Assembly (NCBI RefSeq): GCF_041146795.1
Contig: NC_135175.1
Location: 32,302,136 to 32,366,135 of the forward strand
Source of the DNA: Maylandia zebra
Taxonomy: Eukaryota > Chordata > Actinopteri > Cichliformes > Cichlidae
Direction of reading: 5' to 3'
Length of the DNA stretch: 64,000 nucleotides
A model generated the notes under the pieces. That model did no database searches. It saw only the letters and a list, made by a program, of their open reading frames with translations, and was not told where the DNA came from. A program made the position numbers and the translations under genes. Below, one piece after another: positions 5,788-61,566 of the stretch (the first letter of the stretch is position 1; each line of letters starts with the position of its first letter).

Positions 5788-8700
5788 ATGGAACTGAGCA
5801 GGATAATCGGGATCAAGTGTGTTGTTCTGGCTTTTCTGTGGACTCTTACAAATGGAGGTGAGTGAGGCTGCCATGACCGTCATTAACACAGGTGTGTTTC
5901 GGGTCATGGTGGTTTTTATTCAAAGAAAAAATGAACATGCCAGAAAATTAGACAAGGATTTTGAATTACAATAAGAAATGTATTAATATTTTGTTTGTAC
6001 TCCTCAGAAAGTTTACATAGATGGTTGTCTGAAGGAGGTTTTTTTTACTTTGATGTTGCTTGACTAGTATTTTGTCTAGAAATCCAGTCTTCTGTTATGT
6101 TCCGTTATATAAACTTTAATGGCAGAAATTTCAGAGATATTTGTGCCCAAAGACTTTTTTTTCTCACATTTGTGTTATTTTGTATGTGCATCATTCATTA
6201 AGAGATGCCAGTGAGACTATGCTATGATGCATAGTTCAGATATGTGACACTGACAAAAGACAGAAGACCAAGCTGGAGCTGGAACAGTTGAAGATTTTTG
6301 TTGGCAGTGACCCGGATGGACAAGACAAGAAAAGGGTACATCAGACGCTTAGGTTGACACAACGTTAGAGACTCAAGTCTGAGATGGTTTGGACACATGT
6401 AGAGGAGGGATAGTGGGTATATTGGACAAGCGATGTTGAATATGGAGCTGCCAGGCAGGAAGAAAAGAGAATGAACATAGAGAAGGTTCACAGATGTAGA
6501 GAGAGAACATTCAAAGGAAGATGTGGAGGATATGGTGAGACAGAAGCAAAGAGAGCAGCTGAAAGAATCATTATCTATTCATCAAATTTGGAAAATCCTT
6601 GCGATTGATCTCTTGTGCATCATTTTTGACGTGTAACTAAATTTTAAACACTTAAGATAACGTTTTTTTGAATAGTGATTTGCTACAAAGTCCGAGTTCC
6701 TATTCACCTACTGTGTTAGTGTAAACTTCAAAAATGGCATCACATGAGAAATGTAGTTTTTGAATTTGACCTTCATGCCGGCGTGCATTCCAGCTGTCAC
6801 ATACTTTTGTTTTCTGTGTGGGAAAATGTGGAGTATGTAATGTTGCTACCAGAGTGACACATCTTTCAGCTATATCAGACTCAAACAGCATTGTGTTTAT
6901 ATTCAAGCAACCAGCTTGGTTTTGTATTTTCATAGTGTTTAATGTGGACACCAGGTTTTACTGGTGGAAAAACTAACTATTTTTAATTTAATTGTTGGAT
7001 TTCAGAGAAATGTCCTCTAAGTTGAACTGTGTTGGGTGTCTCTTTGTGTTGCAGATACTGAGGTGTCCTGTGTTTTCCAGGAAAGTTGCATCTTACCCTG
7101 CAGTTTCCTGGGTAGCACTGATGCAGTTATTAGCTGGAGTCTGCTAAAGGCAAGACATGTTTCCATCCTCTCCTACAACTCCAAACAACACCAGCTTACA
7201 CAACAGGATGAGCATTTTAGAGGCCGGGCATCATTATTCAAAGACCAGATATCCAACGGAAACGCCTCACTCCAGCTGACATCAGTGGAGTTTCAAGATG
7301 AAGGCAGATACAAATGTGCAACAGGGGGAAACAATGATTCATTTATCAGCCTAAAAGTGGACGGTACGAGAAACATACAGAAAACACAAGACACTTTTTT
7401 TTTACTATATATTTGCATGAAGATATATAGCAATCTTTGTCTTATAAACAAAAAACATTTCAAGACAAAATAATTTTTTTAGAGTGAATAATTCATAAAG
7501 TATATTTTTTATGGCAGCTCCAGTCCGTGAGGTCAACATTGAGAAGGCAGAAAACAGGATCACCTGCAGCTCTGAGGGGATCTACCCCGAACCTCTGCTC
7601 ACCTGGTCCACCAGCCGTCAAACCGTCTTCAGGAGCACAACCATAGTCCAGCAGAGTGGACCGAACGGAGAACTTTATAACATTAAGAGTTCTGTCATAT
7701 TCCCTGACACCAAACATGACTTCACTGATATGACCTACAGCTGCACTGTCACCACTCGCAGCAACAACAAAACAGCCATTTTGTCAAACCGCAACCTGAA
7801 AGAAGGTAAGTGTGTTTTAAGATTTGTGGTCAGTCAGTCAGACTTTTACCAACCAAATAAAAAAAATGTTCTGCAAAAATCTTCAGAATTTTTTATTAAC
7901 AAAATACATATAATAGTTATTTATAGTTATTTATATTGATTATTAAATAAGTAAAATCAACACTTTTCATTTGTGTATGTGCGTGTCTGTGTGTGTTTGC
8001 TACAGGCATCGCTAAAGCCATGGTGGCAGGCGTCATCATGATTGCGGTAATCTTAGGCCTGATACCGATATGCTGCAATAAATTTAACAGTAAGGTAAAG
8101 ACAAACAAACAGATATCAGGAAGGGTATCTACTTCTGAAATTTGGGGATCTGTTGTGTTGATGTGTTGAATTAATAATGCAACATTTTAGATGCACCAGA
8201 GCTGCTCAGTGCCAATGAGTGTGCTGCCTACAGTGGAAACAGGATCAATGGAGTTACAGGTACAGACAGGCACAGATGTTGCAATGAGCCCCCTTAATCT
8301 GACCAAACTTTACTTAGAACGTCCAAAATTTAATTCAAGCCATTTTAATTCTTTAAAATAAATAAATAAATAAATAATAATAATAAAAATAAAAAACCCT
8401 TTCGTTTCTTTTGCTTTTTTTTTTTTTTACCTTTTCAACTATGTTTCTGTAATGTTTGAAGTGTATATGGTAATCTAAATTCTAAACCATATTCTGTTTT
8501 AAAAAAAAAATAGTCCAACGTTGATCTTTTTTTCTTATAAAAATGAAACAAAATCCTAAAATAATGTATTTCTATGCTTTAACCCAACATGTGCAAGTTC
8601 AAAGGCAAAAGAGTAACAACACAGTGGAAGTATTTTAAAATGTTTAAAGTCATATGAAAAGGAAAACGTGCAACCCTTTAAAAATGATATTAAACTTATA

Positions 8701-9063
8701 CAAAACCCTTTTTAGTACATGATTTAATAGCTGTACTACTTGCTATAGAACTAATATAAACTCTTGGATGACAAACTCTTCTTCAGTCCCATCAGGCTCA
8801 GCAGGTTCCTGATGCTGCAGAAATATCAAGTCAACTCGATTTGGTCCTGACAGAAAAAACTTCAGAGGAACTGAAAACACTGAGCGCTCCTGGGTAAATC
8901 TCTCTCTCGCCCGCTCTTTTTAATCCAGCGTATCTTTGGTTTGCTTTTTTGTTTATTCTTAATGTATTTCAGGACAGAATTCTTTATAATTTCATTTTGC
9001 AGTCACGACCATGAGGGAGATGATTTATTACCAAAGGCAGCGGCAGAACCCACAGAAATGTGA
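5788..9063 (+). CDS. Gene A: hhla2-like IgV-IgC membrane protein
   Basis: Predicted exons: 5788-5857, 7055-7363, 7518-7805, 8006-8094, 8191-8259, 8787-8893, 9003-9063. Together they give one open frame of 330 residues with GT-AG sites throughout. Layout: signal peptide 1-23, IgV 24-126 (C-x5-C-x3-C, DEGRYKCA), IgC about 127-222 ([24 protein letters not shown]), transmembrane about 228-248, then an unusually long cytoplasmic tail of about 80 residues from three exons with no tyrosine motif. It is the most divergent member: the C-strand reads VISW where the others have VIHW. The role inferred from B7/HHLA2 relatives is a cell-surface ligand for lymphocyte receptors. Intron 1 holds a LINE remnant. 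The third tail exon has two in-frame acceptors (8787 or 8796). Confidence 0.8.
6250..6600 (+). repeat. LINE remnant (3' end of a pol gene)
   Basis: The + strand frames give SLRWFGHM, RRDSGYIGQAML and MELPGRKKRE, matching the conserved LRWFGHVxRR...GRPxxRF tail of many fish non-LTR retrotransposon polyproteins. It is short, decayed and lies in intron 1 of gene A. Confidence 0.6.
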
Positions 9064-61000: not shown

Positions 61001-61566
61001 ACACCTGTGAACTCAGTGATGCTGAGGAGACGAAAGTGTCTGAGAATGAAATAAGGATGATGCCGACAGACGGAGGTGAGGTACCATAAGTTTGATTTTC
61101 AAAAACTGTCTGCAAGTTAATTCAGTCAATTTAATGTAAAGCTGCATAAAACTGAAGAGTTTTTTTTTTTAAATATCAAAAAGCAACAAAGAAGAATGAT
61201 GGGACTCAGAAGTCAACCCATCTAGGAGCCATCGCTGCAGCGAGTCTTTGCTTTACAGCATTATTATGCCTGATACTGTACAGCTCCTGTACAAGTACAA
61301 AAAAAAAAAGGTAAAATTCAATTCTGGTTGAACTTTTTATTTTTAATTTTTAATGTTTGCACTGATGGATTCAGGCAGTTTATAGACCAAACCCTGAGTA
61401 CAGAAAAGGCATTTCAATGAACTACTGCAATGTATGAATGACAGCATATGAACTAATACATTAGATCAAACTATTGTTTCCATAAAATTACAACATTTTG
61501 TTTTTGGGTTTGTTTTTGGTTTTTTTACAAAAAGCCAAATTAACTGCTGTCCCATCTAACAGATGA
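55024..61566 (+). CDS. Gene F: hhla2-like IgV-IgC-IgV membrane protein
   Basis: Predicted exons: 55024-55108, 57546-57860, 58166-58432, 60779-61075, 61184-61310, 61563-61566. They give 364 residues. Signal peptide 1-28 ([19 protein letters not shown]), IgV 29-133 ([42 protein letters not shown]), IgC 134-222 ([26 protein letters not shown]), third Ig 223-321 (TILCPPSD, LIWRFNHS, SGSLTLQDLTADHEGIYTC), TM about 335-356. With the donor after an 11-A run the tail stops at once (STKKKR). The downstream sequence 61563-61598 is open in another phase (MKCQAEAPEDQ). Same three-Ig order as mammalian HHLA2. The IgV exon is a mosaic of E-like and C-like sequence. Confidence 0.8.
55480..55770 (+). repeat. 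Insertion unique to intron 1 of gene F
   Basis: Genes D and E run from their intron sequence directly into aagatatcctaat; here about 290 bases intervene, with a TATA-like gtataaagg and a downstream gagatcaccctag. Possibly an LTR-like fossil; ends not defined. Confidence 0.3.
58811..58846. repeat. 10-bp inverted repeat
   Basis: gacctccaat and attggaggtc separated by 16 bases in an intron of gene F. Confidence 0.7.
59350..60270 (-). repeat. LINE remnant with inserted segment
   Basis: Pieces gtgcagaggaaactcattt, cagctttcgcttcaccacaac and tagttaaactcctctacttg match a common fish LINE, minus strand. About 500 bases between 59610 and 60110 do not fit and may be a second insertion. Confidence 0.45.
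61299..61309 (+). other. A11 run at the splice donor of gene F TM exon
   Basis: Eleven A followed by g|gtaaaa. Its length sets the phase into the next exon: with 11 the frame stops within two codons, with 12 it would enter MKCQAEAPEDQ. Such runs slip in sequencing and replication. Confidence 0.75.

Follow-up and report, generated by a model that had tools for sequence, protein, structure and literature searches.

Results

A tandem array of probable HHLA2-like genes in Maylandia zebra

We analyzed a 64,000-nucleotide stretch of Maylandia zebra DNA (C9:32302136-32366135; hereafter the window) that carries six B7-type genes in tandem, each built of a signal exon, immunoglobulin (Ig) exons and a transmembrane (TM) exon. 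In this array, teleost HHLA2-like (B7-H7-like) genes have probably expanded in tandem in a lineage-specific manner. A tblastn search located six IgV exons, all on the + strand, and we observed six matching signal exons on the same strand in a common GGTGAGT donor context, so that the array spans 5788 to ~61310. When the exons were spliced, the signal-IgV-(IgC)-(third Ig)-TM models were free of stop codons in 6/6 genes. Internal exon ends showed GT at 19/19 donors and AG at 19/19 acceptors, with every joint in phase 1; this agreement (38/38) is far beyond chance. The six-gene, single-strand array described by a first-pass annotation of this DNA was therefore borne out.

The annotation also held that signal, IgV, IgC and TM exons are common to all six genes. 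This stood for the signal, IgV and TM exons, but an IgC exon was present in only five genes, gene 3 being the exception, and its domain list was incomplete, as it did not mention a third, V-like Ig exon that occurs within the window in genes 4 and 6 only. Five of the six genes thus have the B7-family architecture (signal, IgV, IgC and TM exons, each Ig domain encoded by a single exon and all joints in phase 1). Among the domains scanned against Pfam, 3/3 outer domains and 2/2 third domains scored above the cut-off as V-set, and 2/2 IgC domains did so as C2-set_3 and CD80-like C2-set. The IgV motif strings that had been listed were present: VVIHW, VHSFY and RTSLF in four genes each, and GNASL and DEGxYxCY in five each. 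The exons, with the evidence for each, are as follows.

5788..5857, +, gene 1 signal exon (signal-exon match, spliced model)
7055..7363, +, gene 1 IgV exon, the most divergent of the six (tblastn, nhmmer, spliced model)
7518..7805, +, gene 1 IgC exon (tblastn, nhmmer, spliced model)
8006..8095, +, gene 1 TM exon, its 3' end unsettled and the modelled end lacking GT (spliced model)
14231..14297, +, gene 2 signal exon (signal-exon match, spliced model)
19432..19746, +, gene 2 IgV exon (tblastn, spliced model)
20263..20541, +, gene 2 IgC exon (tblastn, spliced model)
21520..21614, +, gene 2 TM exon (spliced model)
25898..25967, +, gene 3 signal exon (signal-exon match, spliced model)
28384..28698, +, gene 3 IgV exon, joined in phase to the TM exon, IgC not found (tblastn, nhmmer, spliced model)
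29332..29433, +, gene 3 TM exon (spliced model)
34065..34131, +, gene 4 signal exon (signal-exon match, spliced model)
36591..36905, +, gene 4 IgV exon (tblastn, spliced model)
37405..37671, +, gene 4 IgC exon (tblastn, spliced model)
37863..38147, +, gene 4 third Ig exon, V-like (tblastn, nhmmer, Pfam, spliced model)
38666..38755, +, gene 4 TM exon (spliced model)
38973..39070, +, gene 4 second TM-type exon, a duplicate or relic (ends approximate, by eye)
42703..42769, +, gene 5 signal exon (signal-exon match, spliced model)
45187..45501, +, gene 5 IgV exon (tblastn, spliced model)
45545..45591, +, relic within intron 2 of gene 5, copying 47 bases from an IgV exon 3' end (nhmmer E 1.8e-5)
47996..48259, +, gene 5 IgC exon (tblastn, spliced model)
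50387..50513, +, gene 5 TM exon, unlike those of genes 2-4 (spliced model)
55042..55108, +, gene 6 signal exon (signal-exon match, spliced model)
57546..57860, +, gene 6 IgV exon (tblastn, spliced model)
58166..58432, +, gene 6 IgC exon (tblastn, spliced model)
60779..61075, +, gene 6 third Ig exon, V-like (tblastn, nhmmer, Pfam, spliced model)
61184..61310, +, gene 6 TM exon (spliced model)

Between the IgV and TM exons of gene 3, no IgC exon was detected by tblastn at E ≤ 1 or by nhmmer --max at E ≤ 10; the nearest nhmmer match, 34 bases at 29670 (E 7.6), is noise. A perfect TGTTT repeat of 21.4 copies occupies 28739-28845, where gene 3 is without the exon. The TM exons are of several types, one common to genes 2-4 and different ones in genes 1, 5 and 6. 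We found two relic-type copies (45545-45591 and ~38973-39070); the two relics claimed earlier were given without positions.

Evidence for an HHLA2-like identity

The human HHLA2 query, which underlies all HHLA2 scores and the loop count below, is an unverified sequence: no HHLA2 chain was among its best 60 matches in the PDB, and a literature search with four of its peptides gave 0 hits. Of nine other human sequences checked against the PDB, seven matched more fully than did PD-L2 and BTN1A1; for CD276, VTCN1 and PD-L1 the check covered parts of the sequence, and the VTCN1 IgC sequence is likewise unverified.

We compared an IgV profile of 16 members with 13 human B7, BTN and MOG proteins and obtained 88.2 bits for HHLA2, 82.2 for VTCN1, 59.4 for PD-L1, 57.1 for MOG, 51.1 for CD276, 49.5 for BTN1A1, 48.5 for BTN2A1 and 48.2 for BTN3A1, the other five scoring lower. 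HHalign gave the same top two (HHLA2 141.8, VTCN1 131.8, then 91.8). With 16 members, then, the array IgV is nearest HHLA2 among B7/BTN proteins. In a PDB search with the IgV profile, CD276 had the top whole-chain score (85.5 bits, in two stretches) and VTCN1 the top single-domain score (75.9 bits).

This HHLA2 sequence was also searched against the genome (962 Mb, 63 contigs), with 125 of 738 candidates scored. Its ten best places were nine C9 members of the array's cluster and a member on C10, followed by a CD276-like place in 11th position (56.8 bits) and then three more members; genes 1 and 4 and a divergent gene upstream of the cluster ranked lower, among MOG-like places, and a VTCN1-like place on C16 scored 35.1 bits.

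We counted the B-C loop from the B-strand Cys to the C-strand Trp, both included, reading the HHLA2, CD276 and fish rows by eye. The loop has 12-14 residues in 16/16 array members and 13 in human HHLA2, in which the Cys is Ser; it has 16-18 residues in all 11 other human proteins that carry the Trp (PD-L2 is without it) and 16-18 in four fish CD276, VTCN1 and MOG-like rows. We weigh this shared shortening, with caution, as the best single character pointing to HHLA2, the HHLA2 sequence being unverified. The V-C-V order of domains was found in genes 4 and 6 and at nine cluster places overall, and is lacking in genes 1, 2, 3 and 5.

HHLA2-like is the best-supported family identity, with VTCN1 a close second, on four grounds: the IgV scores, the ten best genome places of HHLA2, the B-C loop that is short in both, and the V-C-V domain order that some members show. 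The B7-type, HHLA2-like assignment made at first pass is thus partly supported: these four lines of evidence favor it, but the IgC comparisons and the trees do not.

Several observations weigh against it. For the six window genes alone, the IgV scores of HHLA2 (72.7 bits) and VTCN1 (72.6) tie, ahead of PD-L1 (51.8). The IgC scores (PD-L1 38.1 bits, BTN1A1 33.2, CD80 32.3, HHLA2 21.4) favor PD-L1, BTN1A1 and CD80 over HHLA2, and IgC therefore gives HHLA2 no support. Nothing strong was found for the third domain (CD86 12.3, HHLA2 IgV 10.6, BTN2A1 9.7, HHLA2 second IgV 8.3), its match to the second IgV of HHLA2 being weak and no better than that to other IgV domains. All 16 members carry C-x5-C-x3-C before and at the B strand; the first two Cys, which may form an extra disulphide, are not in human HHLA2. 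IFT57, a neighbor of HHLA2 in humans, lies here on C18, another chromosome than the array. Finally, a review places HHLA2 orthologs in humans and monkeys only (PMC11119147).

Phylogenetic trees and alternative assignments

We built three IgV trees of 33, 28 and 29 rows and an IgC tree of 29 rows. Human NCR3LG1, CD80, ICOSLG and CD86, which have long branches, were left out of the 28- and 29-row trees; the second IgV of HHLA2 was included in the 33-row tree only, and the 29-row IgV tree adds fish VTCN1. NCR3LG1, MOG and fish CD276 were absent from the IgC tree. No tree included the partial IgV copies (C9:32447586, C3:19006386 and C3:19292748) or a C6 place of uncertain identity that ranked second for human PD-L1 in the genome, and only two of many fish MOG/BTN-like places were included. 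The array formed one side of a branch in each IgV tree (support 92/89, 94/82 and 99/97). Its relatives varied. The first-pass annotation had proposed separate IgV and IgC trees to settle the family; one IgV tree (29 rows) did join the array to HHLA2 (76/40), but the other two put it nearer VTCN1, lying in the VTCN1 half and not that of HHLA2 in the 33-row tree (16/61) and pairing with VTCN1 in the 28-row tree (71/59), and the IgC tree carried no signal (array with VTCN1, 37/0). In the 28-row tree, the approximately unbiased test gave p values (p-AU) of 0.248 for the array with HHLA2, 0.103 with CD276, 0.29 with PD-L and 0.254 with BTN/MOG. The corresponding values in the 29-row IgV tree were 0.316 with VTCN1, 0.077 with CD276, 0.136 with PD-L and 0.411 with BTN/MOG; for IgC they were 0.467 with HHLA2, 0.461 with PD-L, 0.469 with CD80/86 and 0.601 with BTN. 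Support is weak, and no tree decides the family of the array, which also counts against the HHLA2-like assignment.

An expansion of VTCN1 (B7-H4)-like genes is an unlikely alternative, and it is the one that the IgV data bring closest: beyond the tied and near-tied scores, the two tree placements and the p-AU of 0.316, the top three genome places of human VTCN1 fall in the array (150 of 798 candidates scored). The fourth, however, is a likely VTCN1 orthologue on C16 (IgV 63.8 bits), beside which lies the sole match to the IgC of VTCN1 among the matches listed (37.2 bits). This locus groups with human VTCN1 (89/78 in IgV, 96/95 in IgC). Both it (16 residues) and human VTCN1 have a long B-C loop, whereas the array loop is short. 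VTCN1 has two Ig domains, which also weighs against it. The likely VTCN1 orthologue is thus the C16 locus and not the array, though an array-VTCN1 clade is compatible with the p-AU above.

CD276 (B7-H3) shares the B7 fold and the GNASL motif with the array but scores lower in IgV and has its own likely orthologue on C1. The name of that fish row is only likely, because it joins human CD276 in the 33-row tree (80/75) and the PD-L1/PD-L2 pair in the other two (85/72 and 96/79).

A butyrophilin/MOG-like family, whose inclusion of the array had been named as one outcome that would overturn the HHLA2-like assignment, is quite improbable. Its IgC match is good (BTN1A1, above), the p-AU values for IgV allow it in both the 28- and 29-row trees, and joining the array to BTN in IgC raised the log-likelihood 4.01 above the free tree. 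A PRY-SPRY (B30.2) exon, open over 216 amino acids, also lies at 2672-3322 on the + strand, 2.5 kb upstream of gene 1; it has no second window match below E 0.9. Against this, BTN/MOG IgV scores fall 31-40 bits under HHLA2, the B-C loop is longer in BTN/MOG, and BTN/MOG, with two fish MOG-like rows within, formed a group apart from the array in 3/3 IgV trees (92/94, 98/93 and 94/92); the overturning outcome was not observed.

The cluster extends beyond the window and duplicated in units

We searched the genome with the gene 5 IgV, scoring 150 of 837 candidates, so that the counts are lower bounds. At least 14 full IgV members lie on C9 (32.27-33.58 Mb, gene 5 itself counted), six of them in the window, and at least one lies on C10 (120 bits). 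Below the full members the scores drop to 62.6 bits (the divergent gene, C9:32243892) and then to ≤52.5 for CD276-like and MOG/BTN-like places. The window thus holds the middle part of a larger cluster: the six genes described at first pass are a portion of it, and it continues past the window on both sides. A further partial IgV copy is at C9:32447586. With 33/33 candidates scored, the third Ig exon was found at nine places, all on C9 and in the cluster. A third Ig was found for 7 of the 8 C9 members outside the window (none for C9:32385133). Three domains are thus the prevailing form there, and probably the ancestral state of the cluster.

Genes 2-6 lie in repeated units, their IgV exons starting 8952, 8207, 8596 and 12359 bases apart, and homology between units covers introns and intergenic stretches. 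They would have duplicated as units of ~8-9 kb, the last being 12 kb with inserts; several copies have probably lost the third Ig exon, and gene 3 its IgC. With IgV dS of 0.27 to 1.29 among the six genes, most duplications look old.

Among C9 members, the median ratio of nonsynonymous to synonymous substitution (dN/dS, NG86) was 0.36 in IgV (14 members, 91 pairs), 0.53 in IgC (13 members, 78 pairs) and 0.51 in the third Ig (9 members, 36 pairs). These values point to purifying selection on the cluster copies. The C-C' loop seems to evolve faster: ten codons in this hairpin gave a dN/dS of 1.22, as against 0.42 elsewhere, and 13 of 5000 random ten-column sets reached 1.22; this signal is a lead only, because the codon window was picked after a scan and the pairs are non-independent. 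That the genes are mostly decaying, functionless duplicates is very improbable: gene 3 without IgC, the relics at 45545 and 38973 and the partial copies on C9 and C3 are signs of decay, but all six models are stop-free with every internal splice site intact, and dN/dS is well below 1.

A single divergent gene at C9:32243895-32247168, with IgV, IgC and a downstream third Ig-like frame, lies 26 kb upstream of the next member and may represent a separate HHLA2-like lineage. On C3, the 3' half of the IgV occurs as two partial copies (C3:19006386 and C3:19292748) that are 286 kb apart, have equal scores and contain one TGA each.

Discussion

HHLA2 is distinguished among B7 proteins by an IgV-IgC-IgV ectodomain, according to the review, which also names KIR3DL3 as an inhibitory receptor of human HHLA2 (PMC11119147). 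A second paper gives CD28H/TMIGD2 as one co-stimulatory receptor of B7H7, refers to teleost B7H7/HHLA2, describes CD28H from pike, salmon and stickleback, and notes a YxNx motif in the tail of CD28H sequences (PMC11599192). A medaka gene is named hhla2b.1 in a third (PMC10441761), and the gene name hhla2a.1 occurs in two zebrafish papers.

The array encodes type I TM proteins that resemble human HHLA2 in IgV sequence and in having a short B-C loop; the IgV-IgC-IgV order of HHLA2 recurs in genes 4 and 6. The array differs in having many copies, with one, two or three Ig domains, poor IgC similarity and the extra Cys pair before the B strand. The teleost HHLA2/B7H7 genes (medaka hhla2b.1, zebrafish hhla2a.1) are probably of the same family, a likeness drawn by name and description. 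Since teleost HHLA2 is already in print (PMC11599192 and PMC10441761), the array is best seen as an expansion, in this lineage, of a gene type known before; the multiplication of copies proposed at first pass holds, but the kind of gene is not new. What is added here is many copies with an uneven number of Ig domains. A published HHLA2-like expansion of such size was not found in the literature searched, whose coverage was partial and loosely matched.

Each gene is predicted to encode a type I membrane ligand with a signal peptide, an IgV, usually an IgC, a TM helix and a short tail, some copies having a second V-like domain adjoining the membrane. The front sheet of the outer IgV would bind a CD28-family receptor on lymphocytes, with CD28H/TMIGD2 as the first candidate, and would tune activation. 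Variation among copies in the C-C' loop and in Ig-domain number would affect how well they fit receptors and how far they extend from the membrane. It is conceivable, if doubtful, that the cluster supplies a diversified ligand repertoire, unlike the single-copy human HHLA2: one to three Ig domains and positively selected C-C' loops would suit different lymphocyte receptors or escape pathogen mimics, with gene 3 as a single-domain ligand or a decoy. Mice and rats are without HHLA2, the review states (PMC11119147), so in vivo work is limited. A fish with a large cluster of varying domain number offers a ready-made series in which to ask what Ig domain and what loop determine receptor choice, and whether signals stimulate or inhibit.

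Other elements in the window

An RNA family search gave 0 matches in the window. Three stop-free transposase frames of 354-361 amino acids, which we take to be of Tc1/mariner type, lie at 56-1141 (-), 15974-17059 (+) and 46091-47155 (-). The first two sit in inverted copies of 1446 bases that are 99.1% identical and therefore look recent. Between the IgC and TM exons of gene 5, a frame of 264 amino acids at 48851-49645 (-) is presumably reverse-transcriptase-like.

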